Positions 1-59,920 of a DNA stretch of 64,000 nt are shown in pieces. The stretch's first letter is position 1, and the number at the start of each line of letters is the position of its first letter. The notes below the pieces were generated by a model that worked only from the letters and a program-made list of their open reading frames with translations, was not told where the DNA came from and made no database searches. Source of the DNA: Chitinophagales bacterium (lineage in GTDB: Bacteria; Bacteroidota; Bacteroidia; Chitinophagales; UBA2359); assembly GCA_020628375.1 (NCBI GenBank), contig JAHDFD010000017.1, positions 1-64,000 of the forward strand, given 5' to 3'. The translations under genes and the position numbers were made by a program.

Positions 1-515
1 AGTAAGAAGGCTTTAGAATTCCAAAGGGAGTTGTTTAGAGCTTTGTTGCCAACAAAAAAATACTTTGATTCAGTTTCTACAAAATTTTCAGCTCTAATAA
101 ATTCGTTTTGATCTACTTTATAGAAAAGTGCATCGATAAATTCACCATTATTATTCATCTCTAAAATAGATAGTTGTTCATTACTCGCAAATTCATTGGA
201 TACATAAAGAATTTGATTACCATTTTCTAACTTTTCCAATAAAAAAGCTGAACTAATTCTACTAGTATCAATATTACAAGTTTTGTTATACCATTGTAAT
301 TGCCCCTCCCAATTATAGTTAACCATCTTGTTACAGAATGCTTCATCTACTGAGAAACTATTAAGACATGCAATAATTCCAGAGTCTGAATCTTGTGCAA
401 CATTATAAAAATGCCTTAAAGAATCTCTAAGTATATAAATACCATAAGTATCTATTTGAGCCGAGGCACAAAAGAGACTTATGGTATTGCAAATAAATAT
501 AATTAAGTATTTCAT
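1..515 (-). CDS. T9SS-sorted secreted protein, array copy A (3' end beyond window)
   Basis: The start codon is at 515 and 171 codons are visible before the window edge. The first 20 residues form a signal peptide ending in ASAQ. The variable N-terminal block matches copy D (4969-6642), with FYNVAQDSDSG after the constant DSLRH. However, the first codons and the upstream DNA match copy B (for example FICN rather than FISN near residue 10). This copy is therefore a recombinant of B-like and D-like sequence. By analogy with the complete copies it should be about 557 aa, exported by Sec and then the type IX system. Its molecular role is unknown. Confidence 0.9.
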   Translation of the reverse strand, partial: MKYLIIFICNTISLFCASAQIDTYGIYILRDSLRHFYNVAQDSDSGIIACLNSFSVDEAFCNKMVNYNWEGQLQWYNKTCNIDTSRISSAFLLEKLENGNQILYVSNEFASNEQLSILEMNNNGEFIDALFYKVDQNEFIRAENFVETESKYFFVGNKALNNSLWNSKAFL

Positions 516-801
516 TAGTGAATGATAACTTTCTTATTGGCTAAGTTACTAAGTTTTTGCGCTTTACCATCTTTCAAACCCACTTCCCAACGCTCCTAGT
601 CATGCCCAACTCATCTCCTAGTCATGCTGAACCCGTTTCCCAACAATGCCGAACTCATCTCCTAGTCATGCTGAACTCGTTTCAGCATCTCCTCGAAATG
701 TGGTTTGAATACTACTGAATTCGTTTCAGCATCTCCCCGAAAAGCGGTTTGACTTTCACAATTTTATGTTTCCGAAGCCTAAGACAATATTGAACGGTTT
801 A
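516..801. repeat. Intergenic spacer between array copies A and B with REP-like hairpin
   Basis: The spacer contains degenerate direct repeats of the type CCTAGTCATGCTGAAC and CCCAACGCTCC. It also carries a perfect short hairpin, TGCTGAA-CTCGT-TTCAGCA, at 669-687. The part next to copy A resembles the equivalent region of copy B and differs from those of C and D. No run of T follows the hairpin, so an ordinary terminator is not supported. I infer an extragenic palindromic repeat. Confidence 0.7.
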
Positions 802-873
802 TTAGATTTCGGCATGCGCCAAAATGACCATCACACCAAAACAGCTCAAACACCTGAATAACTTTTTGCTCAT
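802..873 (-). CDS. 23-aa mini-ORF downstream of array copy B
   Basis: A 24-codon frame (ATG at 873, TAA at 802) starts 34 nt after the stop of copy B, preceded by a purine-rich AGAAGGAAA. The predicted peptide begins MSKKLFRCLSCFG and ends VILAHAEI, so it has a basic N-terminus, two cysteines and a hydrophobic stretch like a truncated signal or lipoprotein leader. The same frame follows copies C and D with no visible coding change, but the whole spacer is repeated, so conservation is not independent evidence of translation. It could be a tiny secreted or membrane peptide, or the remnant of a longer gene. Confidence 0.3.
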   Translation of the reverse strand: MSKKLFRCLSCFGVMVILAHAEI

Positions 874-907
874 AGTATTTCCTTCTAAAGGAATTAAATA
901 AACAAGA

Positions 908-2581
908 CTATTCCTTCACAAACTTTTTGGTGAAAGAACGCCCATTTTGCAGTACATTAACCAAATAAATACCACTTTCCCATTGCTGAATATCGATAAT
1001 GTTTTCATTGAGTAATTGCTTTTTAGAAAAGACCAATGTACCGCTGCTATTATAGATATTAATAGCTTGTATATTCCTTACTTGTTCTAGTTGAATATTC
1101 AATTGATCTTTCGCCGGATTAGGAAAGAGCTTAAAATCATAATAAGGCTGTAAGGGAATAACATTAGAAGTATAATACGCCTGCATTCCGGGATCATTGG
1201 GTTCTGGTGTATATAGCCACTGAAAAGGTTCAGCACAAATATCATTTTGAATACAACCCTCTTCATCTATCCACGCCCATAATACATCTTGTCCGGTTTC
1301 CCCTTCATTATTTTCAGTTCTGATAGAACCAAAAAGTAAATACCCACCTTGAGGATGTTGAAAGAAGTTGGCGGACTGTATAGAGAATACATCCCTTTCA
1401 TTGATGCCAGAATCTGGTAGAAAGGAATAAGAACGAGTCCAAAGTATTTCACCAGAAGAAGATATTTTTTTAAAGTACAGAGAGTAAGGAATTCCAGCTC
1501 CTAAAGGTGTTTCTTTATAATGGTTAGTGTATCCAATTCCAGCAAGAATTATATCGTTGTTATGTAAAATTAAAGGTCTTTCAAAGGCATATTGCATAGT
1601 ATCTTCAATATGAATTGCCCATTGATGCTCAAAATCTTGATTAACATGTGTGATTTGCCATGCACTATGATTTAATTTATTGTTAAAAGCAACAAAAACA
1701 TTATTGGTAATGACCCTTGTAAAAAATAAATATCCCTCTTTAAATTTAGAAAAATAATTTCCCGTCTCCATATAAAAGGTAGCTTCAGGAGCAAAAGCAT
1801 TACTTTCAGGTGAAATGGTAAGACTATCATTCGCAAAGGGATTTTGAATAGACCAAATAGTATCATTCTCAATCGGGCAATACTTATACAGCTTATGCCA
1901 AAAGGCAAAGTTGCTTTCTTCTTCTAATTGTGGATGTATTCTTTCTTCAGTTCCAGAAATCAAGAGCTTTCCATCATAATCAATGATAATATCATTAAAC
2001 AGGGCAGGACGTGGTAAGGTATTGACCTCAAAATACTGATCAAATTCCAGCTCTTTATTAGTAGCAAGTAAGAAGGCTTTAGAATTCCAAAGGGAGTTGT
2101 TTAGAGCTTTGTTGCCAACAACAAAAATATTTTGAGAGTTTTCTAAAGTTGATTGAACACTTAGATAATCATTTTCATTGAAATCATGTACCAATACTTT
2201 ATCAAACTGCCCATTATATTCTAGTTCTAATAAAGTAATTGCTCCAATAGATCCACCTCCATTCCCGACAAATAATAATTGATTTCCATTTAAAAGGTTT
2301 TTTTGAAGAAAAGCTGAACTAATTCTGTTAGAATCAATTTCACAAGTTTTATTATACCACAGTAATTGCCCCTGCCAATCATAAGCAATCATTTTATTAC
2401 AAAGTGTTTCCCCAGCCAGAAAGCCATTGTTAAAGGTAATAATACGGTCATCATTAACTTCAGCTACTCTGTGTATATGTCTTAAAGAATCTCTAACAAT
2501 ATAAATACCATAAGTATCTATTTGAGCCGAGACACAAAAGAGACTTATGGTATTGCAAATAAATATAATTAAATATTTCAT
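908..2581 (-). CDS. T9SS type A sorting domain protein, array copy B
   Basis: A 557-aa secreted protein of unknown function. It has a signal peptide at residues 1-20, a constant stretch to about 35, variable block V1 (about 36-156, shared with copy C), a constant block (about 157-259), variable block V2 (about 260-391, shared with copy D), and a constant C-terminus. The last 75 residues or so form a T9SS type A sorting domain (FKLFPNPAKDQLNI, then INIYNSSGTLV, then WESGIYLVNVL and a basic end). The body is rich in short beta-strand patterns and may be a beta-propeller (inference). It should be exported by Sec, carried across the outer membrane by T9SS, and its sorting domain removed. Confidence 0.93.
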   Translation of the reverse strand: MKYLIIFICNTISLFCVSAQIDTYGIYIVRDSLRHIHRVAEVNDDRIITFNNGFLAGETLCNKMIAYDWQGQLLWYNKTCEIDSNRISSAFLQKNLLNGNQLLFVGNGGGSIGAITLLELEYNGQFDKVLVHDFNENDYLSVQSTLENSQNIFVVGNKALNNSLWNSKAFLLATNKELEFDQYFEVNTLPRPALFNDIIIDYDGKLLISGTEERIHPQLEEESNFAFWHKLYKYCPIENDTIWSIQNPFANDSLTISPESNAFAPEATFYMETGNYFSKFKEGYLFFTRVITNNVFVAFNNKLNHSAWQITHVNQDFEHQWAIHIEDTMQYAFERPLILHNNDIILAGIGYTNHYKETPLGAGIPYSLYFKKISSSGEILWTRSYSFLPDSGINERDVFSIQSANFFQHPQGGYLLFGSIRTENNEGETGQDVLWAWIDEEGCIQNDICAEPFQWLYTPEPNDPGMQAYYTSNVIPLQPYYDFKLFPNPAKDQLNIQLEQVRNIQAINIYNSSGTLVFSKKQLLNENIIDIQQWESGIYLVNVLQNGRSFTKKFVKE

Positions 2582-2854
2582 TAGTGAATGATAACTTTCT
2601 TATTGGCTAAGTTACTAAGTTTTTGCGCTTTACCATCTTTCAAACCCACTTCCCAACGCTCCTAGTCATGCCCAACTCATCTCCTAGTCATGCTGAACTC
2701 GTTTCCCAACGCTCCTAGTCATGCTGAACTTGTTTCAGCATCTCCCCGCAAAGCGGTTTGAATATTACTGAACTCGTTTCAGCATCTCCTTGAAACGTGG
2801 TTTGACTTTCACAATTTTATGTTTCCGAAGCCTAAGGCAATATTGAACGGTTTA
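2582..2854. repeat. Intergenic spacer between array copies B and C with REP-like hairpin
   Basis: This is a repeat of the array spacer with the hairpin TGCTGAA-CTTGT-TTCAGCA at 2722-2740, plus further degenerate copies of the same word. The promoter-proximal part matches the spacer upstream of copy A, not those upstream of C and D. Confidence 0.7.
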
Positions 2855-2926
2855 TTAGATTTCGGCATGCGCCAAAATGACCATCACACCAAAACAGCTC
2901 AAACACCTGAATAACTTTTTGCTCAT
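2855..2926 (-). CDS. 23-aa mini-ORF downstream of array copy C
   Basis: The frame is the same 24 codons as the mini-ORF after copy B, with the same spacing from the gene stop and the same AGAAGGAAA preceding the ATG. No coding difference from the other two copies is visible. It is part of the duplicated unit, so its identity says nothing about selection. Translation is unproven. Confidence 0.3.
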   Translation of the reverse strand: MSKKLFRCLSCFGVMVILAHAEI

Positions 2927-2960
2927 AGTATTTCCTTCTAAAGGAATTAAATAAACAAGA

Positions 2961-4634
2961 CTATTCCTTCACAAACTTTTTGGTGAAAGAACGCCCATTT
3001 TGCAGTACATTAACCAAATAAATACCACTTTCCCATTGCTGAATATCGATAATGTTTTCATTGAGTAATTGCTTTTTAGAAAAGACCAATGTACCGCTGC
3101 TATTATAGATATTAATAGCTTGTATATTCCTTACTTGTTCTAGTTGAATATTCAATTGATCTTTCGCCGGATTAGGAAAGAGCTTAAAATCATAATAAGG
3201 CTGTAAGGGAATAACATTAGAAGTATAATACGCCTGCATTCCGGGATCATTGGGTTCTGGTGTATATAGCCACTGAAAAGGTTCAGCACAAATATCATTT
3301 TGAATACAACCCTCTTCATCTATCCACGCCCATAATACATCTTGTCCGGTTTCCCCTTCATTATTTTCAGTTCTGATAGAACCAAAAAGTAAATACCCAC
3401 CTTGAGGATGTTGAAAGAAGTTGGCGGACTGTATAGAAAATACATCCCGTTCGTTGATGCCAGAATCGTGTAAGAAAGCATAGGATCTGGTCCATAGTAC
3501 TTCGCCAGAAGAAGATATTTTTTTAAAGAATAAAATATCTGGCCAATCAGCACCAAAAGGAGTTTCCTTAGCCCAATTAGTATATCCATACCCTGCAAAA
3601 ACTATATCATTATTTTCTAAAATAATAGGTCTTTGAAAGTAATACTCCATAGTATCTTCAATATGAAGTGCCCATTGATGTTCAAAATCTTGATTTACAT
3701 AAGTCATTTGCCATGCACTATGGTTTAACCTATATCCAAAAACAACAGAAACATTATTGGTTAAGACTCTTGAAAAGAATAAATAACCATCTTGATATTT
3801 AGAAAGAAAATTACCCGTCTGCATATAAAAAGTAGCTTCAGGAGCATTAACGCTACTTTCAGGTGAAATGGTAAGACTATCATTCGCAAAGGGATTTTGA
3901 ATAGACCAAATAGTATCATTCTCAATCGGGCAATACTTATACAGCTTATGCCAAAAGGCAAAGTTGCTTTCTTCTTCTAATTGTGGATGTATTCTTTCTT
4001 CAGTTCCAGAAATCAAGAGCTTTCCATCATAATCAATGATAATATCATTAAACAGGGCAGGACGTGGTAAGGTATTGACCTCAAAATACTGATCAAATTC
4101 CAGCTCTTTATTAGTAGCAAGTAAGAAGGCTTTAGAATTCCAAAGGGAGTTGTTTAGAGCTTTGTTGCCAACAACAAAAATATTTTGAGAGTTTTCTAAA
4201 GTTGATTGAACACTTAGATAATCATTTTCATTGAAATCATGTACCAATACTTTATCAAACTGCCCATTATATTCTAGTTCTAATAAAGTAATTGCTCCAA
4301 TAGATCCACCTCCATTCCCGACAAATAATAATTGATTTCCATTTAAAAGGTTTTTTTGAAGAAAAGCTGAACTAATTCTGTTAGAATCAATTTCACAAGT
4401 TTTATTATACCACAGTAATTGCCCCTGCCAATCATAAGCAATCATTTTATTACAAAGTGTTTCCCCGGCCAGAAAGCCATTGTTAAAAGTAATAATACGG
4501 TTATCATTAACTTCAGCTACTCTGTGTATATGTCTTAAAGAATCTCTAAGTATATAAATACCATAAGTATCTATTTGAGCCGAGGCACAAAAGAGACTTA
4601 TGGTATTGGAAATAAATATGATTAAGTATTTCAT
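2961..4634 (-). CDS. T9SS type A sorting domain protein, array copy C
   Basis: A 557-aa paralogue with the same length and architecture as copy B. Block V1 (about residues 36-156) is essentially identical to copy B. Block V2 (about 260-391) differs from B and D at many positions: it reads SSVNAPEATFYMQTGNFLSK where they have SNAFAPEATFYMETGNYFSK. Outside the variable blocks it is almost invariant, including the C-terminal T9SS domain. The substitutions in V2 are spread over about 130 residues without any indel, so the fold is probably kept while the surface changes (inference). Confidence 0.93.
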   Translation of the reverse strand: MKYLIIFISNTISLFCASAQIDTYGIYILRDSLRHIHRVAEVNDNRIITFNNGFLAGETLCNKMIAYDWQGQLLWYNKTCEIDSNRISSAFLQKNLLNGNQLLFVGNGGGSIGAITLLELEYNGQFDKVLVHDFNENDYLSVQSTLENSQNIFVVGNKALNNSLWNSKAFLLATNKELEFDQYFEVNTLPRPALFNDIIIDYDGKLLISGTEERIHPQLEEESNFAFWHKLYKYCPIENDTIWSIQNPFANDSLTISPESSVNAPEATFYMQTGNFLSKYQDGYLFFSRVLTNNVSVVFGYRLNHSAWQMTYVNQDFEHQWALHIEDTMEYYFQRPIILENNDIVFAGYGYTNWAKETPFGADWPDILFFKKISSSGEVLWTRSYAFLHDSGINERDVFSIQSANFFQHPQGGYLLFGSIRTENNEGETGQDVLWAWIDEEGCIQNDICAEPFQWLYTPEPNDPGMQAYYTSNVIPLQPYYDFKLFPNPAKDQLNIQLEQVRNIQAINIYNSSGTLVFSKKQLLNENIIDIQQWESGIYLVNVLQNGRSFTKKFVKE

Positions 4635-4862
4635 TAGTGAATGATAACTTTTTTATTGGCTAAGTTAATATCTTTTTGCGCTTTATCATCTTTCAAACCA
4701 CTTCCCAACGCTCCTGGTCCTGCCGAACTCATCTCCTAGTCATGCTGAACTCGTTTCCCAACGCTCCTAGTCATGCTGAACTTGTTTCAGCATCTCCCCG
4801 CAAAGCGGTTTGGCTTTCACAATTTTATGTTTCCGAAGCCTAAGACAATATTGAACGGTTTA
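4635..4862. repeat. Intergenic spacer between array copies C and D with REP-like hairpin
   Basis: A shorter version of the array spacer, with the hairpin TGCTGAA-CTTGT-TTCAGCA at 4774-4792. It lacks the second block with the ACTGAACTCGTTTCAGCA word that is present in the other spacers. Its promoter-proximal part matches the spacer upstream of copy D (TTAATATCTTTTTGCGC rather than TTACTAAGTTTTTGCGC). Confidence 0.7.
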
Positions 4863-4934
4863 TTAGATTTCGGCATGCGCCAAAATGACCATCACACCAA
4901 AACAGCTCAAACACCTGAATAACTTTTTGCTCAT
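4863..4934 (-). CDS. 23-aa mini-ORF downstream of array copy D
   Basis: Third copy of the 24-codon frame, 34 nt beyond the stop of copy D. It encodes the same short peptide with a basic start and hydrophobic middle. A fourth, truncated copy lies at the array's right end: there the sequence stops matching after the codons near 6942, so the duplication breakpoint falls inside this frame. Confidence 0.3.
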   Translation of the reverse strand: MSKKLFRCLSCFGVMVILAHAEI

Positions 4935-4968
4935 AGTATTTCCTTCTAAAGGAATTAAATAAACAAGA

Positions 4969-6642
4969 CTATTCCTTCACAAACTTTTTGGTGAAAGAAC
5001 GCCCATTTTGCAGTACATTAACCAAATAAATACCACTTTCCCATTGCTGAATATCGATAATGTTTTCATTGAGTAATTGCTTTTTAGAAAAGACCAATGT
5101 ACCGCTGCTATTATAGATATTAATAGCTTGTATATTCCTTACTTGTTCTAGTTGAATATTCAATTGATCTTTCGCCGGATTAGGAAAGAGCTTAAAATCA
5201 TAATAAGGCTGTAAGGGAATAACATTAGAAGTATAATACGCCTGCATTCCGGGATCATTGGGTTCTGGTGTATATAGCCACTGAAAAGGTTCAGCACAAA
5301 TATCATTTTGAATACAACCCTCTTCATCTATCCACGCCCATAATACATCTTGTCCGGTTTCCCCTTCATTATTTTCAGTTCTGATAGAACCAAAAAGTAA
5401 ATACCCACCTTGAGGATGTTGAAAGAAGTTGGCGGACTGTATAGAGAATACATCCCTTTCATTGATGCCAGAATCTGGTAGAAAGGAATAAGAACGAGTC
5501 CAAAGTATTTCACCAGAAGAAGATATTTTTTTAAAGTACAGAGAGTAAGGAATTCCAGCTCCTAAAGGTGTTTCTTTATAATGGTTAGTGTATCCAATTC
5601 CAGCAAGAATTATATCGTTGTTATGTAAAATTAAAGGTCTTTCAAAGGCATATTGCATAGTATCTTCAATATGAATTGCCCATTGATGCTCAAAATCTTG
5701 ATTAACATGTGTGATTTGCCATGCACTATGATTTAATTTATTGTTAAAAGCAACAAAAACATTATTGGTAATGACCCTTGTAAAAAATAAATATCCCTCT
5801 TTAAATTTAGAAAAATAATTTCCCGTCTCCATATAAAAGGTAGCTTCAGGAGCAAAAGCATTACTTTCAGGTGAAATGGTAAGACTATCATTCGCAAAGG
5901 GATTTTGAATAGACCAAATAGTATCATTCTCAATCGGGCAATACTTATACAGCTTATGCCAAAAGGCAAAGTTGCTTTCTTCTTCTAATTGTGGATGTAT
6001 TCTTTCTTCAGTTCCAGAAATCAAGAGCTTTCCATCATAATCAATGATAATATCATTAAACAGGGCAGGACGTGGTAAGGTATTGACCTCAAAATACTGA
6101 TCAAATTCCAGCTCTTTATTAGTAGCAAGTAAGAAGGCTTTAGAATTCCAAAGGGAGTTGTTTAGAGCTTTGTTGCCAACAAAAAAATACTTTGATTCAG
6201 TTTCTACAAAATTTTCAGCTCTAATAAATTCGTTTTGATCTACTTTATAGAAAAGTGCATCGATAAATTCACCATTATTATTCATCTCTAAAATAGATAG
6301 TTGTTCATTACTCGCAAATTCATTGGATACATAAAGAATTTGATTACCATTTTCTAACTTTTCCAATAAAAAAGCTGAACTAATTCTACTAGTATCAATA
6401 TTACAAGTTTTGTTATACCATTGTAATTGCCCCTCCCAATTATAGTTAACCATCTTGTTACAGAATGCTTCATCTACTGAGAAACTATTAAGACATGCAA
6501 TAATTCCAGAGTCTGAATCTTGTGCAACATTATAAAAATGCCTTAAAGAATCTCTAAGTATATAAATACCATAAGTATCTATTTGAGCCGAGGCACAAAA
6601 GAGACTTATGGTATTGGAAATAAATATGATTAAGTATTTCAT
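4969..6642 (-). CDS. T9SS type A sorting domain protein, array copy D
   Basis: A 557-aa paralogue. Its V1 block (HFYNVAQDSDSG onward, to about residue 156) matches copy A and is clearly different from B and C. Its V2 block (about 260-391) matches copy B. The signal peptide, the central constant block and the C-terminal sorting domain are the same as in the other copies. It is therefore a third combination of the same cassettes. As the first gene in the direction of transcription, any array promoter should lie in 6643-6942. Confidence 0.93.
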   Translation of the reverse strand: MKYLIIFISNTISLFCASAQIDTYGIYILRDSLRHFYNVAQDSDSGIIACLNSFSVDEAFCNKMVNYNWEGQLQWYNKTCNIDTSRISSAFLLEKLENGNQILYVSNEFASNEQLSILEMNNNGEFIDALFYKVDQNEFIRAENFVETESKYFFVGNKALNNSLWNSKAFLLATNKELEFDQYFEVNTLPRPALFNDIIIDYDGKLLISGTEERIHPQLEEESNFAFWHKLYKYCPIENDTIWSIQNPFANDSLTISPESNAFAPEATFYMETGNYFSKFKEGYLFFTRVITNNVFVAFNNKLNHSAWQITHVNQDFEHQWAIHIEDTMQYAFERPLILHNNDIILAGIGYTNHYKETPLGAGIPYSLYFKKISSSGEILWTRSYSFLPDSGINERDVFSIQSANFFQHPQGGYLLFGSIRTENNEGETGQDVLWAWIDEEGCIQNDICAEPFQWLYTPEPNDPGMQAYYTSNVIPLQPYYDFKLFPNPAKDQLNIQLEQVRNIQAINIYNSSGTLVFSKKQLLNENIIDIQQWESGIYLVNVLQNGRSFTKKFVKE

Positions 6643-6942
6643 TAGTGAATGATAACTTTTTTATTGGCTAAGTTAATATCTTTTTGCGCTTTATCATCTT
6701 TCAAACCACTTCCCAACGCTCCTGGTCCTGCCGAACTCATCTCCTAGTCATGCTGAACTCGTTTCCCAACGCTCCTAGTCATGCTGAACTTGTTTCAGCA
6801 TCTCCCCGCAAAGCGGTTTGAATATTACTGAACTCGTTTCAGCATCTCCTTGAAACGTGGTTTGACTTTCACAATTTTATGTTTCCGAAGCCTAAGGCAA
6901 TATTGAACGGTTTATTAGATTTCGGCATGCGCCAAAATGACT
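6643..6942. repeat. Right-end spacer of the array, truncated in the mini-ORF
   Basis: This spacer has the hairpin TGCTGAA-CTTGT-TTCAGCA at 6782-6800 and a second degenerate copy. Identity to the other spacers ends at about 6942, within the mini-ORF sequence (after GCCAAAATGA), and unique DNA begins 11 nt before the -7 box of the mutase. It should also hold the divergent promoter for copy D, but I cannot identify a clear one. Confidence 0.65.
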
Positions 6943-6952
6943 AAGCAAACCC

Positions 6953-6960
6953 TATCTTTG
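6953..6960 (+). promoter_or_regulatory. Putative -7 box of the mutase gene (leaderless transcript)
   Basis: TATCTTTG fits the Bacteroidota -7 consensus TAnnTTTG and ends only 4 nt before the ATG at 6965. The transcript would therefore start at or next to the start codon. No TTG is visible at the -33 position, which falls in repeat-array DNA. Confidence 0.55.
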
Positions 6961-6964
6961 CAAG

Positions 6965-25808: not shown

Positions 25809-28679
25809 TTAGAATGGTATATCCTCATCATCATAAGAACCCGGAGGTGGGGGAGGAGGAGGATTATTCATTTTTGAACCTAAAGAAATGAAACCGGTAT
25901 TCGGTTCACTGGTGCCAGACATACCAAAGTCGGTATTAGCAGCCGAAGGATAGGTGTCAAAATTATTCATTCCTCCAAAAGTATCAAGATCGACAAATTT
26001 GGTGTATTTACCTATGAATCTTGTTTTAATAGTTTCCAGAGAACCATTTCTGTGCTTAGCAATTATAACTTCTGCAAGTCCCTGAGTCGGATTACCATCT
26101 TCATCCTGATCAAAACCATAATATTCTGGTCTGTATAAGAAGACTACCATGTCAGCATCTTGTTCGATGGCTCCTGAGTTATGAATGATAAAATCATTTG
26201 CTACAAAGTTATGTAAGCCCTCTATGTGTAAATCATAGGTTGGGGCAGAGCCTAACTTTTTGATCGATTTAATTTTCTCCCATTTTAAATCACTGTTAGC
26301 CAGATTTTCCAGATATTCATTTTCAAGTACATCGGCTACCTTTTGTAAACGGCTTCTTGAAATATTCGGTTTGTAGAACGAACTTCCACAATAATTACTT
26401 TCTAAAGCAGTCTGGAATGATCTTTCTGTAAAGCCTTCTGATTTCTTTAATGCTTTTATTTCCTGCCATAATGCTCTTGGAATAATATCAGAATTTGGAA
26501 TACTATCGATATTATTGATAAGATTCACTAATTCGGATAAAAGCTGTCTCTTGCTTCCAAAAATGCCAATATGATCGGCAAACTTTAAAAGATTTTCTTT
26601 CCCTGTAATATTGAGACTGAACTGTGGCAAATAACCTTCTTTCTGCGATTTTTGAATAGACGCCTGAATGGAAAACCTTAGTAGCAATGATTTTAACTGC
26701 TTAATTAGTTTTTCAGAATTAGAACTATAATGAATTTTATGAGAACCTTTTCCTTTTCTAATGAAAATGCCACCATCGGTTGCCCAAAGATGATTAAGGA
26801 ATAATGACAATTGCTCATTATCACATTTCATTATCTCATCAGCAAGTATTTTCTGAAAAGAACGCGCTTTATTTAATCCTATACTTTTTAGTAAATTGAT
26901 GAACGGATGGTGTTTCCCTTTTGCTAAGGGATACGGACTAGGAAGATAAACGTGATAACAGTTGTTTGATTGTTTATCTTTTACAAATCGAGCATCAATA
27001 TCCCATAACTTTTTTGCACAAGCTGCAACAATGTCCCTACTTTCAGCATCTTGACTGGTATAATGAATTGCTTGTCCTTCGACATAACATCCATCACCGA
27101 TCATGTGAGCCAATAAAATTAGCTCTTCATTTTTTAACGAACTAAAAGTATTATTAACTGTTTCGCGAGCACAAGCTATATGGCTTCCTTCTTTTAAGTT
27201 CTCTAAAGCAGACCAACCATTTATGGTATAAAACGGGTGATTTGCACTTGTTTTAATTTTATAACCAGATTGAGTTTCTAATTCATAAATTTCTTTTTCA
27301 CCCGTTTCCCAAATATCCAGACATAGGGCTGGTTCAAGACGATGATCAGGATTCATAGAAAGTACTTTGAAGCCAGCACCTTCTTTAAGCAATTCTCCTA
27401 CGGACTTGTAAATGCCTTGTTCTGGAAGGTATATCTCAGTATCGGCAGTAATACACTCCCTCAAATCCGATAGTTGTGGTTTCTTTAAGCCACCACGTTG
27501 TTCTACTGCACGACTTAACTGCGACAGGGCAATTACAGGAATATTGAGTTCTTTGGCAATACCTTTTAAGGAACGCGAAATATTACTGATCTCTTGTTCA
27601 CGATTCCCTCCTTTACCATCGCTAGAGCCGGTCATTAACTGTAAATAATCGATTACGATCATTTGAATATCGTGGTTCATTTTTAAACGACGACATTTAG
27701 CACGTAATTCAAAAATATTGATACCCGGTGTATCGTCTATATAAATAGGCGCTTCTGAAAGGTTATTCATTTTACTGGTAAGCTGTGCCCACTCATGTCC
27801 GGCAAGCGTACCCTTCCTTAACTTTTCAGATGGAATTTCCGCTTCAGAAGAAATCAAACGCTGTACCAATTGAACCGATGACATTTCCAGTGAGAAAACG
27901 GCGATTGGTTTTTTAAATTCTACGGCAGCATTTCTGGCAAGTGCCAAAACGAAACTCGTTTTTCCCATACCCGGACGAGCGGCCATAATTATCAGGTCGG
28001 AGCGTTGCCAACCAGCAGTAACAGCATCTAACTGAATAAATCCTGATGGAACTCCGGTAACACCTTCTGTGTTTTTACTTACTTCTTCTATTTGTGCCAA
28101 TGCCTTGGTCAGTAGATTACCCATCGAATCGTAGTTCCTACGAATATTTCCTTGTGCAATACCAAAAAGATCACGTTGTGCTTTTTCTAATAATTCGAGC
28201 GCATCGTTGGTTTCTTCGAAAGCATCTTTTATAATTTCGTTTGAAGTACGAATAAGTTCACGCTTTATATACTTTTCAGCAATGATACGTGCATGGGCTT
28301 CGATATTGGCAGTTGAAGCAACAGTATTGGTTAATTTCGACAAATAGAATGCACCACCTATTTGTTCCATTTTTCCCATTTTGCGAAGCTTGTCCGAAAC
28401 GGTAAGTAAATCTATAGGTTTGCTATCGGCAAACAGGTCTTTCATTGCCTTGTAAATGATCTGGTGAGCATCTACATAAAAACTATTGGGTTCAAGTATA
28501 TCAATAACCTCTGAAACGGCTTCTTTGTCCATCATCATGGAACCCAGAACAGCTTCCTCCATAAGGCGTGCCTGAGGTTGTACTTTGTTGAAAACATAGC
28601 CAGCTAAATCACCTTTTGGTTTCTTGCCAACTCCGTAAGATTTCTTAATTTTATCGAAAGGGTCTTTTTGTTCTGCCAT
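25809..28679 (-). CDS. dnaB: Replicative DNA helicase DnaB, with intein
   Basis: A 956-codon gene encoding the hexameric replication-fork helicase interrupted by an intein. DnaB N-terminal domain about 30-175. RecA-like domain from about 210 with Walker A ARPGMGKTS (234-242), Walker B MIVIDYLQLM, and NISRSLKGIAKELNIPV. Extein is 1-408 and 835-956; removal gives about 530 aa, normal for DnaB plus a C-terminal tail with polyproline and DDEDIPF. The intein lies after LSDLRE and before SGAIEQDADMV, a conserved nucleotide-binding motif, so splicing should be essential for activity. Confidence 0.96.
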   Translation of the reverse strand: MAEQKDPFDKIKKSYGVGKKPKGDLAGYVFNKVQPQARLMEEAVLGSMMMDKEAVSEVIDILEPNSFYVDAHQIIYKAMKDLFADSKPIDLLTVSDKLRKMGKMEQIGGAFYLSKLTNTVASTANIEAHARIIAEKYIKRELIRTSNEIIKDAFEETNDALELLEKAQRDLFGIAQGNIRRNYDSMGNLLTKALAQIEEVSKNTEGVTGVPSGFIQLDAVTAGWQRSDLIIMAARPGMGKTSFVLALARNAAVEFKKPIAVFSLEMSSVQLVQRLISSEAEIPSEKLRKGTLAGHEWAQLTSKMNNLSEAPIYIDDTPGINIFELRAKCRRLKMNHDIQMIVIDYLQLMTGSSDGKGGNREQEISNISRSLKGIAKELNIPVIALSQLSRAVEQRGGLKKPQLSDLRECITADTEIYLPEQGIYKSVGELLKEGAGFKVLSMNPDHRLEPALCLDIWETGEKEIYELETQSGYKIKTSANHPFYTINGWSALENLKEGSHIACARETVNNTFSSLKNEELILLAHMIGDGCYVEGQAIHYTSQDAESRDIVAACAKKLWDIDARFVKDKQSNNCYHVYLPSPYPLAKGKHHPFINLLKSIGLNKARSFQKILADEIMKCDNEQLSLFLNHLWATDGGIFIRKGKGSHKIHYSSNSEKLIKQLKSLLLRFSIQASIQKSQKEGYLPQFSLNITGKENLLKFADHIGIFGSKRQLLSELVNLINNIDSIPNSDIIPRALWQEIKALKKSEGFTERSFQTALESNYCGSSFYKPNISRSRLQKVADVLENEYLENLANSDLKWEKIKSIKKLGSAPTYDLHIEGLHNFVANDFIIHNSGAIEQDADMVVFLYRPEYYGFDQDEDGNPTQGLAEVIIAKHRNGSLETIKTRFIGKYTKFVDLDTFGGMNNFDTYPSAANTDFGMSGTSEPNTGFISLGSKMNNPPPPPPPGSYDDEDIPF
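26178..27455 (-). other. DnaB intein (426 aa) with LAGLIDADG homing endonuclease
   Basis: Residues 409-834 of the dnaB product. It begins with Cys409 (CITADTEIYLPE, block A), has block B SANHPFYTINGW, and ends FVANDFIIHN (blocks F and G, His-Asn), with Ser835 as the +1 residue. Two LAGLIDADG-type helices, AHMIGDG (about 524-530) and NHLWATDGG (about 629-637), suggest an intact dodecapeptide endonuclease. All canonical splicing residues are present, so it should self-splice and may still home. Confidence 0.94.
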
Positions 28680-33351: not shown

Positions 33352-34410
33352 CTACTTTTCAGATGTTGTTTCTTCGTCTGGGTTTATTTCTGCTTCATCT
33401 GCTCCAGGTGTCCCTAATATTTCAGCTTTAATTTCAGCTTCAAGTTGTTCTGCTAAAATTGGATTATCGAGTAAAAATTGTTTTGCATTATTTCTACCCT
33501 GACCGATTTTTTCACCATTATAAGCAAACCAAGAACCGCTTTTATCAACGATATTCAGTTCAACACCAAAGTCAAGTATTTCTCCGATTTTGGAAACACC
33601 TTCTCCGTACATAATATCGAATTCTACCACCTTGAAAGGAGGAGCAACTTTGTTCTTTACTACTTTAACACGCGTACGATTTCCAATTACATTCGTGCCA
33701 TCTTTAATGGCAGTAGAACGACGGATATCCAAGCGTACAGAAGCGTAATACTTAAGGGCATTACCACCGGTAGTCGTTTCAGGATTTCCGAACATAACAC
33801 CGATCTTTTCACGAAGTTGGTTAATGAAAATACAAGTACAACCAGTTTTGTTGATCGTTCCGGCTAACTTACGCATTGCCTGTGACATTAAGCGGGCTTG
33901 TAATCCCATTCTTGAATCTCCCATATCACCTTCTAATTCACCACGAGGTACTAAGGCAGCAACCGAGTCGATCACTACAATATCCAAAGCCCCCGAACGA
34001 ATTAAATGATCGGCAACCTCAAGTGCCTGCTCACCAAAATCTGGCTGAGAGATCAGTAGATTGTCAACATCTACGCCTAATGCTGCAGCATAAGACTTAT
34101 CAAAAGCGTGTTCAGCATCAATAAAGGCAGCAATACCACCGGCTTTTTGAGCTTCGGCAATGGCGTGAATGGCAAGTGTTGTTTTACCCGATGATTCAGG
34201 TCCGTAAATTTCGATTACTCTACCGCGAGGGTAGCCGTTGATTCCTAAGGCAATATCCAGGCCTAAAGAACCGGAAGGAATAACATCAACATCTATAGCC
34301 TGGCGTTCTCCTAGTTTCATAACTGTACCCTTTCCGTGGGTTTTGTTCAGTTTGTCAACTACCAGATTTAAGGCTTTTAGTTTCTGTTCTTTTTGTTTGT
34401 TGTCTGACAT
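33352..34410 (-). CDS. recA: Recombinase RecA
   Basis: A 352-aa protein that forms filaments on ssDNA, exchanges strands and triggers LexA-type cleavage. Walker A GPESSGKT (70-77), the L1/L2 DNA-binding loops around [14 protein letters not shown] and [20 protein letters not shown], and the C-terminal acidic tail ([17 protein letters not shown]) are present. Length matches the family. The next gene on the same strand is the ferredoxin, 67 nt downstream. Confidence 0.98.
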
Positions 34411-51997: not shown

Positions 51998-52041
51998 GCC
52001 CTATCAGCAAGAAAATACTCGCTGATAGGGCATTTTTATTT
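51998..52041. terminator. Terminator between the peptidase genes and the glycan operon
   Basis: GCCCTATCAGC (51998-52008) and GCTGATAGGGC (52021-52031) form a perfect 11-bp stem followed by ATTTTTATTTATT. It ends the plus-strand unit and, being palindromic, may also limit the minus-strand operon, whose stop codon (52036) overlaps it. A 7-bp tandem repeat CAGGATT (three copies) lies just upstream at 51971-51992. Confidence 0.88.
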
Positions 52042-53343
52042 ATTAGAAATTTCGTCTAAATATCCTGCAATTTTTTTAGTCAAATTATAACTCGTATATT
52101 CATTCAGGTTCGAAGTATTATCAACCTCAAAGGTTTCACTTTGCTTCCAGTGCTGGTACATTTTTAGCAAAGTTTGCTTGATGCCCTCAAAATCTTCGTA
52201 GTTTTTAGTGTAACCACTTTTAGTTTTCTCCAATATTTTTCCAACATCACTTTGTGGAGGACCTAAACACAAAATGTATTTTTTTACGGCAAGATATTCA
52301 AATAATTTACCCGGAATACGCCCCATAACATTATCTTGTTTGTTTAGTGGTAGGAATAAAACGGAGCTTTGTGCAATCGTATTCAAGGCTTCTTTACGTG
52401 GAACATAGCCTACCACATTTACCACCTCATTTAAGTTCAGGTCTTCATAAGATTCTTTTACAGAAAAATCGACCTGACCAACTAATTTAATTTCTAGATC
52501 GTTTTTGAATTCGTCATTTTCTTCACAAAGCTTTTTTATTACTTTAAAGAATGTTTCAGGTTTTCTGTCGTAGCCCAAAATACCAATATGGGAAATGGTG
52601 AATTTATCTTTCTTATAGTTTGGTAGATTTCCGTAATCATCGGTGTCGAAACCCCAATAGATAACCGAAACATTTTTTGCTCCTATGTCCTCGAGTTCTT
52701 TCTTCCACGTAGGGCTTACTATGGTTACTTTATCGGCATATTTAAAAGCTTCTTGTTCTAAACGGCGGTGTTTTTTGTCGGCCCATTTGGTTAGACGTAA
52801 AAGTTGGTAGTAATCTACTTGTGTCCAGGGATCCTGATAATCAGACAACCAGGGTGTACCAGTATTTTTCTTAAGCAAGGTGGCAATACGGGTATTGGTG
52901 TGCGGTGGTCCATCTGTTAAAATGGCATCTATCTGGTTATTCTTAATATAATCAGTTAAAAACTTTACAGAAGGTTTTATCCACATAGCTCTCGCGTCGG
53001 GGATGAAAAAATTACTTCTGATCCATACGGAAAGTTTATGAAGGAAGCCGGACTTTTCGTCTTGGGTATAAAAAACATTATTGACATTGGCATCTTTTTT
53101 CTGCCCGGTTACCATTTTGTAAATGGTGTATGGCTCCCATATTTTCTGCTTCAGAACCGTAATGTTTTCAGGAATATCTTTATTGTTGCTCTCGTCTATG
53201 GTTGGATAGTGAGGATTTTCGGCAGTAAAAATAATGGGTTCCCAACCAAAGTTTCGTAGATATTTTGCCATTTTAAGGCAACGTAAAACACCTATCCCAC
53301 CTGAAGGTGGCCAGTAATATGTGATAATCAAAACTTTTTTCAT
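52036..53343 (-). CDS. GT4-type glycosyltransferase
   Basis: A 435-aa GT-B glycosyltransferase. N-terminal ITYYWPPSGGIGVLRCL is the family loop; C-terminal SHIGILGYDRKPETF, VVNVVGYVPRKEALN and GRIPGKLFEYLAVKK are the donor-binding elements. It transfers a sugar from a nucleotide donor to a surface glycan or lipid-linked acceptor. It is the last gene of the eight-gene operon and starts directly at the stop of the preceding gene (0-nt gap). Confidence 0.85.
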   Translation of the reverse strand: MKKVLIITYYWPPSGGIGVLRCLKMAKYLRNFGWEPIIFTAENPHYPTIDESNNKDIPENITVLKQKIWEPYTIYKMVTGQKKDANVNNVFYTQDEKSGFLHKLSVWIRSNFFIPDARAMWIKPSVKFLTDYIKNNQIDAILTDGPPHTNTRIATLLKKNTGTPWLSDYQDPWTQVDYYQLLRLTKWADKKHRRLEQEAFKYADKVTIVSPTWKKELEDIGAKNVSVIYWGFDTDDYGNLPNYKKDKFTISHIGILGYDRKPETFFKVIKKLCEENDEFKNDLEIKLVGQVDFSVKESYEDLNLNEVVNVVGYVPRKEALNTIAQSSVLFLPLNKQDNVMGRIPGKLFEYLAVKKYILCLGPPQSDVGKILEKTKSGYTKNYEDFEGIKQTLLKMYQHWKQSETFEVDNTSNLNEYTSYNLTKKIAGYLDEISNK

Positions 53344-54825
53344 CTATTTCAATCTAAACAGGTCTTTCAACCCCATTTTATTATTATCGATAAGTTTATG
53401 TAGCCTGAACCATTGTTTGATTTTATGGCTATACTTAAAAATATTGAAGATAGTTGACGGATAAAATCGTCTTATCTTTTCAGATTTGTAAAAGGCATTA
53501 AATTTATCTTTATATTCAAACCTTTCAGGTACGAAGCCAAAATTACTAACATATAAACTGTATTTAAAAGTATTTTCCTGTGGCATTGGTGCTAAATTCT
53601 TTAGCTCTATTAGCTTTACTAATTCTTGAAATGATTTAGGAACATAAGCAAGGTCTTGATTCATATAAAATGATTTACCATACAAAATAGAAGGCGTACC
53701 CCAATAAGTGGCTTCAACTCCTGTGGTTGAACCAAAACTTACAGCTTTATCGCATTTTTCCATCAGATAATATGTGTCAACTTCAGAATTTGGTGGTATA
53801 ACGGTCAAATTCGGAAAAGACATTTTCTCAATCTCTCTTATTTGAATATTATCTACTTTCCCCAAATTTGGATGTACCCTTAAGTAAAAATGAATATTGG
53901 TATTGTTTACAAAATATCCCACCATTTTTTCAATAGCTTCATTTTGTGAATCGTACAGCTCGGTTTGCCATTCAACTATTGCTTTCATTTCATCTTCCGA
54001 AGAATTAAAAATGGCAATATTGATCTTCGATTCATCAAAATTTTGAGGAAGGGTTTGCTTTGTTTGTTTTCCTATGTATGATTTGTCATTTTTTTGTCTG
54101 CCATATTTTTTATCGTTGAACCATTGGTTCGCCAGTTTTATTCTTTCCGTTGTTTCAAAATTATCCCACAACTTATTCGCTTCTCTTTCCCAGGCTTTTA
54201 TACTGTGAGGCAGACTGTTTTCGTAGATGTTATATTTCCCCGCTCGGCTTCCGGCTTCAACGGTAGCATAGGGTATATTGTATTTTTTTACTAATTCTAT
54301 GACCGGATAAAACTCAGCAAAACGTCCGTTGAAAAGGTATATCTTATCGGGCTTGAATTCAGTAATCTGATGTTCAATATTACACATCACATTTACCGAT
54401 TTGCGTAGTTCAGTTTCAATTAATCCGCCATATTTTTCAGTATTTATTTCATAATCTCTTTTTAAAGAAATAATGGTTGAAGCTGTTCCTCGACCAATAT
54501 TTATACCTTTATAATTAAAGGTCATTAGTTCTTGAAGATGTGAGAAATTGGGTATTGTTAATTGGTTCGCTTTTTCGTGTTTTTTTAAATTAACAATGTT
54601 CTTTTTTTCTATGCCAACCAAATTAAAAAGCTTTTGTGTACGTGCCTGACAAATAGCGCAACCTATTACATGCCCTTTGGGGTTTAAATAACAATTAGCT
54701 AGCACTGCATCACAATTTAAAACGCGAATTTGATGTTTTTCGTTTTTGAGATTTTCTATTACTTCTGCTCCTAAACCAGCATGAAGCGGACTCATTCCTT
54801 CAGCAAAATAGTATAATATTTTCAT
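53344..54825 (-). CDS. GT-B-fold polysaccharide biosynthesis protein, candidate glycosyltransferase
   Basis: A 493-aa soluble protein. N-terminal HAGLGAEVIENLKNEKH and a Cys-rich stretch (NCDAVLANCYLNPKGHVIGCAIC), then YLFNGRFAEFYPVIELVKK. C-terminal FYLRVHPNLGKVDN, CDKAVSFGSTTGVEATYWG and PSILYGKSFYMN resemble capsule-type transferases (Kps/CDP-glycerol-like). It follows the sulfotransferase gene by 9 nt. Because no other candidate transferase for pseudaminic acid is in the operon except this and the next gene, it is a candidate CMP-pseudaminic acid transferase (inference). Confidence 0.55.
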   Translation of the reverse strand: MKILYYFAEGMSPLHAGLGAEVIENLKNEKHQIRVLNCDAVLANCYLNPKGHVIGCAICQARTQKLFNLVGIEKKNIVNLKKHEKANQLTIPNFSHLQELMTFNYKGINIGRGTASTIISLKRDYEINTEKYGGLIETELRKSVNVMCNIEHQITEFKPDKIYLFNGRFAEFYPVIELVKKYNIPYATVEAGSRAGKYNIYENSLPHSIKAWEREANKLWDNFETTERIKLANQWFNDKKYGRQKNDKSYIGKQTKQTLPQNFDESKINIAIFNSSEDEMKAIVEWQTELYDSQNEAIEKMVGYFVNNTNIHFYLRVHPNLGKVDNIQIREIEKMSFPNLTVIPPNSEVDTYYLMEKCDKAVSFGSTTGVEATYWGTPSILYGKSFYMNQDLAYVPKSFQELVKLIELKNLAPMPQENTFKYSLYVSNFGFVPERFEYKDKFNAFYKSEKIRRFYPSTIFNIFKYSHKIKQWFRLHKLIDNNKMGLKDLFRLK

Positions 54826-54834
54826 TGAAATTGG

Positions 54835-55605
54835 TTAAGGAAGTTTATTGTACAAGTCGCCCAATATGATTTCAAACGATTTCTTATACTCACTAGGCCA
54901 GCTATCGTAATCTTCGATTTTTTTAGTAGGTGTTTTTATTTCATCTTTTGTGTTTACTGCTTTTATTTTCTTGATCTTTAATTCAATTCCAATAAACTTT
55001 TCAAGTTCATCTATTTCACCTTTTATCAGATCTTCAAATTTCAGGTACATAAAATCGGTATTTTTAATACCTTCTAAAATGGTTTCGTGGTAATTTTTCA
55101 AATAATAACACATTCTATCAAAAGCGGGAAGATCTTTAGCACCTGATAGTTCAGAATTATATCTAATTCTATTACTATCTATAAAAATTTGAGGAAATAC
55201 TGTCTTATTGACATTTGAAGCAACAATACTTTTTAAATCACGATATAAAAATATAAATTTTGCATTTGGAAATACTTCTTTAATTAAGGGAGCTAAGGAA
55301 AACAATCTATTGCTAGATTCTAAAAAGACAGATTTTCGAGTTAATAGTAATATATTTTTTATCAATTGCTTATTTGAGCCATCCAAGAAATATCTTACCG
55401 CCAAAATATCAAGATCGGGTTCTTTTTCGTGGTAAACTTTGCTTATGTTGTTTGCTTTTAGCAATTCAACTAAATATTTTGAACCACAGCTGCCAGGATT
55501 CAGGCAAAAATATTTAACTTCTTCAGTGTTATTTAAAAGATTAATAATATCTCGAGGAAATATCTTTGCATAATTATATATTCTGTAAATACTTCTTGGA
55601 ATCAT
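54835..55605 (-). CDS. Sulfotransferase family protein
   Basis: A 256-aa enzyme: FCLNPGSCGSKYLVEL is the 5'-phosphosulfate loop that binds PAPS, and FIFLYRDLKSIVAS is the 3'-phosphate binding motif. It transfers sulfate to a hydroxyl or amine, here presumably on the glycan made by the operon. Cytoplasmic; no signal or membrane segment. It lies 7 nt after pseI. Confidence 0.78.
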   Translation of the reverse strand: MIPRSIYRIYNYAKIFPRDIINLLNNTEEVKYFCLNPGSCGSKYLVELLKANNISKVYHEKEPDLDILAVRYFLDGSNKQLIKNILLLTRKSVFLESSNRLFSLAPLIKEVFPNAKFIFLYRDLKSIVASNVNKTVFPQIFIDSNRIRYNSELSGAKDLPAFDRMCYYLKNYHETILEGIKNTDFMYLKFEDLIKGEIDELEKFIGIELKIKKIKAVNTKDEIKTPTKKIEDYDSWPSEYKKSFEIILGDLYNKLP

Positions 55606-55612
55606 ACTTCTC

Positions 55613-56656
55613 TTACAACTTCAATGGTGTTCCAAAATTTAAATCCATAGGTGCTTTCTTCCCTAATATGTTTTCGTAATACTTAGGGGGCATTCCATCG
55701 CCAGGGCGAATAATTTTTATATTTTCTGAGGTGAATTTTTCTCCTTTTTTTATGTCTTTTACAACATAGATAGAACGCTTGAACTGTCGGCTTACTTCTT
55801 CGGATTTTTGTGTATCAAGCTGTATGTTACCTAAAGCTAAAAAGGCTCTTTCGCTTTCTTCAACCAGTAGTTTTAGTTCGTGCGGTTCTAGCGAGAAGGC
55901 ACTATCTACACCACCATCTGCTCTTTTTAGGGTAAAGTGTTTTTCTATTACCCTTGCCCCCAATGCAACTGCTGCCACAGATGCGCCTATGCCCATTGTA
56001 TGATCTGATAAGCCAATGGTACAATTGGGGAATATTTGTTGTAAAACAGGAATAGTGTTTACATTGGTGTTTTCGGCACTTGCGGGGTAGGTACTAGTGC
56101 ACTTGAAAATAACAATATCTTTTGCTCCATTGGACTTTAAGTATTGAATCGACTCGTATAGTTCGGAGATTTTACTTGTTCCAGAAGAAATTAAAATTGG
56201 TTTGCCTGTTTGTGCTACTTTTTTAAGTAATGGGAAATGATTGCTTTCAAAGGAAGCTATTTTATACGCTGGAACATCTAGTGTTTCTAGGAAGTCAACG
56301 GCTGTTTCGTCGAAGGGTGAAGAAAAAGCTAAGATGCCTAATTCATTTGCATAATCAAAAACCTGTTTATGCCATTCCCAAGGGGTGTAGGCTTCTTGGT
56401 AAAGCTCATATAAGTTTTTACCATACCAAAGTGAATTTTTATCAGTAATATCAAATAAGCCCCCTCTATGATTAATTGTAATTGTATCGGCAGTATAAGT
56501 TTGTAATTTTAAGGCACTTGCTCCAGCTTGGGCGGCAGCCTTTACCAATGCGAATGCTCTATCAATTGATTGATTATGATTGCCTGACATTTCGGCAATA
56601 ATAAATGGTTTGTGGTTTTTGCCTATATCTATGTTTCCTATTTTAAATTCATTCAT
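55613..56656 (-). CDS. pseI: Pseudaminic acid synthase
   Basis: A 347-aa NeuB-family enzyme condensing phosphoenolpyruvate with 2,4-diacetamido-trideoxy-L-altrose to pseudaminic acid. It has IAEMSGNHNQSIDRAFALV, KLQTYTADT, SSGTSKISEL and LSDHTMGIGAS; the C-terminal SAF (antifreeze-like) domain includes RSIYVVKDIKKGE. The GNHN motif and TYTADT favour PseI over NeuB. Overlaps pseG-pseH by 4 nt. Confidence 0.93.
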   Translation of the reverse strand: MNEFKIGNIDIGKNHKPFIIAEMSGNHNQSIDRAFALVKAAAQAGASALKLQTYTADTITINHRGGLFDITDKNSLWYGKNLYELYQEAYTPWEWHKQVFDYANELGILAFSSPFDETAVDFLETLDVPAYKIASFESNHFPLLKKVAQTGKPILISSGTSKISELYESIQYLKSNGAKDIVIFKCTSTYPASAENTNVNTIPVLQQIFPNCTIGLSDHTMGIGASVAAVALGARVIEKHFTLKRADGGVDSAFSLEPHELKLLVEESERAFLALGNIQLDTQKSEEVSRQFKRSIYVVKDIKKGEKFTSENIKIIRPGDGMPPKYYENILGKKAPMDLNFGTPLKL

Positions 56657-58083
56657 TTTAAAACATATTTGAAAGCATTTTCATATAATTCTGCTTCTGT
56701 TTCGCTAAATCCAAGGTTTCTAAAAATTTTAGTTGAAGGTATATTTTGTTTTTTTACATATCCGATAATCGGTGTTTTCATGCCAAAATAGTCTTTAGCT
56801 TTTTTAATTCCTTCTTTTAAAATTATTTCACCTAATCCTTTTCCTCTATAATTTTTATCTATTGAATAGCCTATATATATTTTTTTATCTTTTAAGTCGA
56901 AACGAACTTGTCCTACCATATTACTGGCTACTTGTGCCAATAACATCAGTGTATTTTTATCTTCTATTTTTTGTTGAAACCAATTTTTGTGCGAGGCTAA
57001 GGGTATTGTAGTTGAATTAAAAGATTGTTTTCTTGTTTCGGTTTCATTTGTCCACTGGTAGTAAAGCATTATATCATTTGTAGTAGCTTTTCTTAGAGTA
57101 ACTAATAAATGATAAAACATTTTTATAAATCGTTTTTTTTGTTTTCCGTCTATTATTTTTATTTTTTCTTCATCAAATGGTTTTTCGATTAGTGTTGTTT
57201 GCTCATCAAATTTTAAGGCTAAGTTGTTTGCGATTAAATAATTGAAAATTCCTTTCTGATTATCAGCAATGGTTTTTAAATACAATTCACCACCTATACT
57301 TAAGTATTCGAAGGAAATAGTACTTGGCGGAGTAATGGCTTTCCCACATTTTTGCATACATTCGACCATTTGTACTGCACTTAAATTACTTAATATTTCA
57401 ATATTAGTTGAGGAGTGTACCACAAATTTTTCCAATTCACTGCGATACAAATAAGCACTACCTACAATAATATAATAATTATAATTTGGTTTTTGTGTTA
57501 TACAATGCTGAATTACTTTTAAGGTATCATTTTTTGGATCAGCACCACCTAAGCATATTAATACATTTTTATTATAGGTTTTATTTATACCATTTTTTAT
57601 GGCTTCTCTGAATGGCTTTCTTAAAAGTAAATAGGATAGTCCTAAATAAATTTGTGTATAGCTTTCTACAGAGTAATCTTCTTTTTTAACACCACCAGCA
57701 TGATTTATAATGGCATCTGCAACAAAATGATAGGCATAAATATCATCAATGCAAACTAATTTACGGGCTTTCGATTTTATTAATCTTTGATATTCAGTTA
57801 CGAAATGGTAGCCATCTAAAACTACTATTTCTTTATTGGTTAAATATTGTTTTGCTATATATTCAGCTTCTTCAATATCATTTTTAGTTTCGGGAAGTTC
57901 AATAATGGTTTCACAAATTTCTAATATTTGCTTTTTTAGTGTTGAGAGAGGATTTCTAACTATAAAATGACATTCAAAATCTTCACACAACATTTCTGCT
58001 AAGGCTAAAGAACGGATAATATGTCCTAAGCCCATTTTGGAATTGCCATCGGCTCTGAAGTATATTTTTTGTTTATTTTTCAA
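56653..58083 (-). CDS. pseG: PseG-PseH fusion: nucleotide sugar hydrolase plus N-acetyltransferase
   Basis: A 476-aa protein in two parts. Residues 1 to about 320 are PseG (UDP removal from 2,4-diacetamido sugar): RADGNSKMGLGHIIRSLALAEML with catalytic-type His21, CLGGADPKND. Residues about 325-476 are a GNAT acetyltransferase (VTLRKATTNDIMLYYQWTNE, then GYSIDKNYRGKGLGEIIL) as in PseH, which acetylates the 4-amino group before PseG. Fusing two successive enzymes fits the missing separate pseH gene. Start overlaps pseF stop by 11 nt. Confidence 0.9.
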   Translation of the reverse strand: MKNKQKIYFRADGNSKMGLGHIIRSLALAEMLCEDFECHFIVRNPLSTLKKQILEICETIIELPETKNDIEEAEYIAKQYLTNKEIVVLDGYHFVTEYQRLIKSKARKLVCIDDIYAYHFVADAIINHAGGVKKEDYSVESYTQIYLGLSYLLLRKPFREAIKNGINKTYNKNVLICLGGADPKNDTLKVIQHCITQKPNYNYYIIVGSAYLYRSELEKFVVHSSTNIEILSNLSAVQMVECMQKCGKAITPPSTISFEYLSIGGELYLKTIADNQKGIFNYLIANNLALKFDEQTTLIEKPFDEEKIKIIDGKQKKRFIKMFYHLLVTLRKATTNDIMLYYQWTNETETRKQSFNSTTIPLASHKNWFQQKIEDKNTLMLLAQVASNMVGQVRFDLKDKKIYIGYSIDKNYRGKGLGEIILKEGIKKAKDYFGMKTPIIGYVKKQNIPSTKIFRNLGFSETEAELYENAFKYVLK

Positions 58084-59918: not shown

Positions 59919-59920
59919 TT

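Follow-up and report, generated by a model that had tools for sequence, protein, structure and literature searches.

The omp-1/p28/map1 genes of Ehrlichia form tandem clusters of intact outer-membrane protein paralogues that bear signs of frequent homologous recombination in the past, and their diversity may stem from the differential expression of intact copies rather than from one expression site (PMC4534519). The surface antigens encoded by msp2 in Anaplasma, vlsE in Borrelia and mgpB/C in Mycoplasma genitalium vary through segmental gene conversion, in an arrangement that combines an expression site with silent donors (PMC4534519). Surface genes of Porphyromonas gingivalis, including those for cargo of the type IX secretion system (T9SS), undergo allelic exchange between strains at single loci (PMC5266723). 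Moreover, the consecutive LRR protein genes of Flavobacterium psychrophilum vary in copy number among strains and have been resolved only by long reads (PMC8400371), and the DUF1703 family of Cardinium cCpun consists of expanded paralogues with intragenic recombination (PMC6387759).

The array described here reaches the very first base of contig C41 (74145 bases), whose bases 1-64000 constitute the window, that is, the whole stretch of DNA analysed. The source genome is a 3.30 Mb draft in 41 contigs with an estimated completeness of 69%. As the initial annotation had stated, positions 1-6642 contain three full copies and one partial copy. They appear as three ORFs of 557 aa and a partial ORF of 171 codons, which follow one another head to tail along the minus strand with gaps of 334-392 bases (V1 and V2 denote the two variable blocks delimited below, their types being indicated by lower-case letters):

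4969-6642, minus strand: copy A, 557 aa, V1a-V2a; first array copy, adjoining the methylmalonyl-CoA mutase gene
2961-4634, minus strand: copy B, 557 aa, V1b-V2b
908-2581, minus strand: copy C, 557 aa, V1b (three SNPs relative to B)-V2a; the reassorted copy
3-515, minus strand: copy D, 5' 171 codons only, V1a; truncated where the contig ends, at window base 1
6643-6964, minus strand: region upstream of A, in which array-type spacer passes into unique sequence; outer array boundary

A fifth copy, E, occupies the end of C21, another contig from this assembly (positions 128145-129943 of 129990). Its orientation matches an arrangement in which C21 and C41 lie next to each other and the array spans their junction, as is presumably the case. 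The array would then extend beyond the window, with E closing its other side. Downstream of E, an array-type spacer passes into unique sequence beside murF, and the spacer upstream of A passes into unique sequence beside the mutase gene; since both flanks run into unique sequence, the array is bounded on either side and comprises at least five copies. Right where V1 begins, a 128-bp MITE of the TA-targeting type interrupts copy E; the element is flanked by TA and bears imperfect terminal inverted repeats. Owing to this insertion, E is probably not expressed as a full protein. The element occurs in three copies that are 99% identical:

C21:129708-129838: MITE within copy E
C36:88426-88556: second MITE copy
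C10:12059-12188: third MITE copy

A synteny comparison limited to the mutase locus revealed no array at that position in a draft genome of the same genus (G005), where an SDR gene flanks the mutase and the gene order is otherwise rearranged. The nearest named match of an Mpl-like ligase encoded near the array belongs to a Chitinophagales MAG (73% identity), which makes an uncultured, Chitinophagales-like member of the Bacteroidota the probable host. Elsewhere in the window, a DnaB replicative helicase gene (25809-28679) carries an intein with a LAGLIDADG endonuclease domain, and a minus-strand cluster (52036-60946) encoding a NeuB-family synthase, a GNAT acetyltransferase and a glycosyltransferase probably comprises genes for a nonulosonic acid (sialic-like) surface glycan.

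The nucleotide alignment of the copies divides the coding sequence (CDS) beyond the leader into four blocks:

CDS nt 102-460, minus strand: variable block V1 (A 6183-6541; B 4175-4533; C 2122-2480; D 56-414), delimited from difference positions
CDS nt 461-781, minus strand: constant block K1 (A 5862-6182), identical in A, B, C and E
CDS nt 782-1197, minus strand: variable block V2 (A 5446-5861; B 3438-3853; C 1385-1800)
CDS nt 1198-1674, minus strand: constant block K2 (A 4969-5445), identical in A, B, C and E; holds the T9SS type A sorting tail

Copies A and B differ at 234 of 1674 bases, every one of them inside V1 or V2. The differences between A and C are confined to V1 and six leader sites, and those between B and C to V2 together with six positions in the leader and three in V1, with no differences in K1 (nt 461-781) or K2 (nt 1198-1674) and no indels among the full copies. 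One V1 type is shared by 3-515 and 4969-6642 and the other by 908-2581 and 2961-4634, whereas V2 is alike in 908-2581 and 4969-6642 and different in 2961-4634. Thus, the sharing patterns that had been proposed for V1 and for V2 both held, as did the uniform length of 557 aa without indels in all three full ORFs, and the blocks proved to have sharp limits (102-460 and 782-1197) rather than an evenly spread divergence. In copy E, V2b and the rear part of V1b are combined with a V1 front end of a third type, distinct from both a and b (nt ~111-222); there, E differs from B at 43 positions, and from that point through the stop codon at none. The five copies contain two V2 types and two to three V1 types. 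The term cassette, used in the initial annotation, overstates the case for these swappable blocks: V1 did not move solely as one unit, since copy E joins the third front end to V1b at nt ~222.

Protein variability sits in V1 and V2, as would be expected if simple duplication had been followed by uneven purifying selection, with V1 and V2 evolving fast, K1 and K2 persisting as slow cores, and no exchange taking place. The silent sites speak against such a history. While dS reaches 1.39 in V1 and 0.70 in V2, it is zero in K1 and K2, where none of the 64 and 94 synonymous sites, respectively, shows a difference; given a divergence like that of V2, the chance of zero silent change is about 1e-17 for K1 and 1e-25 for K2. 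Consequently, the identity of K1 and K2 goes beyond what purifying selection alone would produce, and uneven purifying selection is ruled out as the source of the blocks, unless K1 and K2 were strongly constrained at the nucleotide level. Furthermore, copy C equals B at 140/140 informative V1 sites (up to nt 460) and then A at 91/91 V2 sites (from nt 782), a single-switch order with a log10 P of about -66. Immediately before the start codon, the upstream sequence sets A and B apart from C, D and E; the rear part of V1 groups A and D against B, C and E; and V2 groups A and C against B and E, the V2 of D lying beyond the contig end. All four combinations thus occur between upstream type and V1 rear, and likewise between upstream type and V2 (four-gamete pattern). 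Recombination is required to account for these combinations, as a tree without exchange would need many recurrent changes; together with the single switch, they render simple duplication hardly credible.

On the evidence of their sequences, the copies have exchanged pieces. The recombination or gene conversion among copies suggested by the initial annotation is borne out by the silent-site identity, the single switch in C, the four-gamete combinations and the V1c/V1b joint in E. The locus also displays the hallmark of concerted evolution, with some blocks identical at silent sites and others divergent; a search for orthologues with which to compare the paralogues found none among 20 genomes of the family, 398 of the order and 395 of the class, and a scan of species genomes likewise found none. 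The copies share exact repeats of 0.6-1.6 kb (1369 bp between A and C, 1575 bp between B and E), and the window encodes a normal recA (33352-34410), so that the means for recombination are present.

Exact repeats of 0.3-1.6 kb, which could mislead a short-read assembler, invite another explanation, namely that two strains or fewer copies were joined over the identical K1 and K2 blocks into a chimera with false V1-V2 pairs and a false copy number. Both contigs end within array repeats, and the genome is a draft of 69% estimated completeness, as would suit such an artefact. Nevertheless, each copy carries private markers: leaders differ between A/B, C and D/E, the four upstream spacers are distinguished by SNPs and by their lengths (322, 334, 379 and 392), and V1b of B and that of C are separated by three SNPs. 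Moreover, both array ends pass into unique sequence, and A-C are free of frame breaks. Given the spacer lengths and SNPs private to each copy, a wholesale artefact is unlikely, and we regard the chimeric explanation as having a small but appreciable chance of being correct. The mosaic evidence comes from five copies of one genome, in an array that crosses an assembly break, and both the exact copy order and the V1-V2 linkage across the 321 exact bases of K1 are provisional. Arrays of this kind break assemblies and conceal copy-number variation.

The proteins end in a T9SS type A sorting domain (residues 485-557; window positions 4972-5190 in A) that scores above the curated cut-offs of TIGR04183 (52.6 bits; cut-off 23) and PF18962 (56.7-58.3 bits; cut-off 27), and the T9SS translocon protein SprA is encoded in the same genome on C21 (2389.7 bits; cut-off 200). 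The N-terminus, MKYLIIFISNTISLFCASA-Q, resembles a Sec signal peptide, as judged by eye only. Type IX secretion, as previously predicted for these products, is thus well supported by the two tail models and the presence of SprA, and the products are probably anchored at the cell surface. Another T9SS-associated protein of the window, with a galactose-binding domain (PF23759; 39145-42240), contains three 246-bp tandem repeats that are 96% alike.

For residues 1-470, searches of genomes from the family (20), the order (398) and the class (395) returned no convincing relative, nor did a species-genome collection, viral contigs and plasmids, and Pfam and PDB gave no match. A lone match to the N-terminal region (3.4e-4 among 395 genomes) was dismissed, being about what chance would produce. 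HHalign and phmmer detected no distant kin among the T9SS proteins of the same genome or the window proteins. The family appears to be undescribed. An AlphaFold model built from three sequences was unusable (pLDDT 32). G-x-hydrophobic(3-4)-G motifs recur near residues 46, 99, 151, 204, 284, 342 and 414, and the self-similarity of the protein is statistically weak, with one pair at z 5.6-6.8; from these spaced motifs and this self-similarity only, one might guess at a seven-bladed beta-propeller in which V1 would correspond to blades 1-2 and V2 to blades 5-6.

Besides the four blocks, the leader and the spacers contain palindromic features:

CDS nt 28-78, minus strand (A 6565-6615; B 4557-4607; C 2504-2554; D 438-488): 51-nt coding hairpin in the signal-peptide region, with a 12-bp perfect outer stem
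4635-4968, minus strand: A-B intergenic spacer with a palindromic TGCTGAAACAAGTTCAGCA element
2582-2960 and 516-907, minus strand: homologous spacers, differing by indels and SNPs

The leader hairpin has a z of -7.7 against shuffles in B; its strength was matched by 2-6 of 2000 synonymous recodings, and no window among 2992 taken from six other genes reached it. The palindrome is also present in copy E, and no further occurrence was found in the genome at the search threshold. One may speculate that it serves translation control or acts as a recombination-prone palindrome just before V1. Palindromic TGCTGAAACRAGTTCAGCA elements lie in spacers 516-907, 2582-2960, 4635-4968 and 6643-6964, within the window in array spacers only, and are scattered elsewhere in the genome (e.g. 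C30:76048-76358). In addition, an intergenic tandem repeat at C39:159232-160670, with a 232-bp unit (98% matches), includes 54 bp with 85% similarity to the array spacer.

The reassorted V1 and V2 blocks, the surface export signal, a third V1 front end in the interrupted copy E that could serve as a donor, and a hairpin beside the V1 boundary whose strength exceeds that of at least 99.7% of its synonymous recodings would all suit a dedicated diversification locus, at which V1 and V2 are regularly shuffled for antigenic or ligand variation, perhaps with help from the hairpin; the array would then be the reservoir that the initial annotation had thought possible. However, dN/dS is 0.33 in V1 and 0.25 in V2, far under 1, and the five copies offer only two types of V2 and two to three of V1. 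Block-average dN/dS gave no sign of diversifying selection, averages being able to mask a few sites, and values of 0.25-0.33 leave positive selection unsupported; they indicate instead that the V1 and V2 versions are old, functional and on average under purifying selection. Together with the intact ORFs of equal length, they speak for functional genes in all three full copies, A, B and C, and the equal length of all copies fits a constrained fold. The architecture also departs from a single expression site with silent donors, since A, B and C are intact, each with its own leader and upstream region, and only E is interrupted. Likewise, all copies lie in direct orientation, as opposed to those of a shufflon or invertible locus; no inverted sites were detected at the block borders, the sole strong inverted repeat being the hairpin inside the leader. 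Site-specific shuffling was rejected on the absence of inverted sites and of any recombinase domain among the 30 window proteins scanned. As the host is, moreover, uncultured and without known immune pressure, we consider a dedicated diversification locus improbable. A related and quite doubtful proposal is that the hairpin promotes combinatorial exchange of V1 front, V1 rear and V2 among intact tandem copies, yielding surface variation without a known immune host, for instance as protection from phages or predators, or as a way to change partners.

The reading that we prefer, with a probability of roughly 0.78, is that the array represents a lineage-specific tandem family of at least five copies, one of them interrupted, whose T9SS-exported products evolve by homologous exchange among copies. 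Across copies, synonymous sites are identical or nearly so in the leader, in both constant blocks and in some spacer segments, and unequal crossover and gene conversion would start in such long identical stretches (up to 1.3-1.6 kb exact). Exchange would homogenise these stretches, enlarge the array and drag V1 or V2 along, and new V1-V2 pairs such as that of copy C would arise from the dragged blocks, while old functional V1 and V2 variants would persist and reassort. The product would be anchored at the surface and have a binding or structural role, possibly with a beta-propeller fold, and its variable blocks may change the ligand- or partner-facing part; several variants would be kept side by side instead of being switched at one expression site. 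Both the process, gene conversion plus unequal crossover, and the coexistence of variants are what we infer from the pattern.

If the array truly reassorts, it would offer a clear natural example of intact tandem surface genes that exchange blocks, and this in an uncultured Bacteroidota rather than in one of the pathogens from which such systems are mostly known. It would also raise the question of which pressure drives surface variation there. Like the P. gingivalis genes, it encodes Bacteroidota T9SS cargo with domain variants combined by recombination, but the exchange in that species takes place between strains and here among tandem paralogues of one genome. The F. psychrophilum genes are likewise near-identical tandem genes in a Bacteroidota; they encode LRR proteins, however, and the variation described concerns copy number, not a block mosaic. 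The DUF1703 proteins of Cardinium also form an expanded Bacteroidota paralogue family with intragenic recombination, yet constitute a diverse, non-homogenised nuclease family. With msp2, vlsE and mgpB/C the array shares constant blocks flanking variable segments and mosaics generated by segmental exchange, whereas those systems have an expression site with silent donors and the array retains at least three intact complete copies. Like omp-1 of Ehrlichia, it groups intact genes for surface proteins that bear the marks of recombination, although the protein family and the export route (T9SS) are different, no immune pressure is known, and the borders between constant and variable blocks are sharp. 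By analogy, the array would thus resemble tandem clusters of intact paralogues of the Ehrlichia omp-1 type more than systems built around a single expression site.
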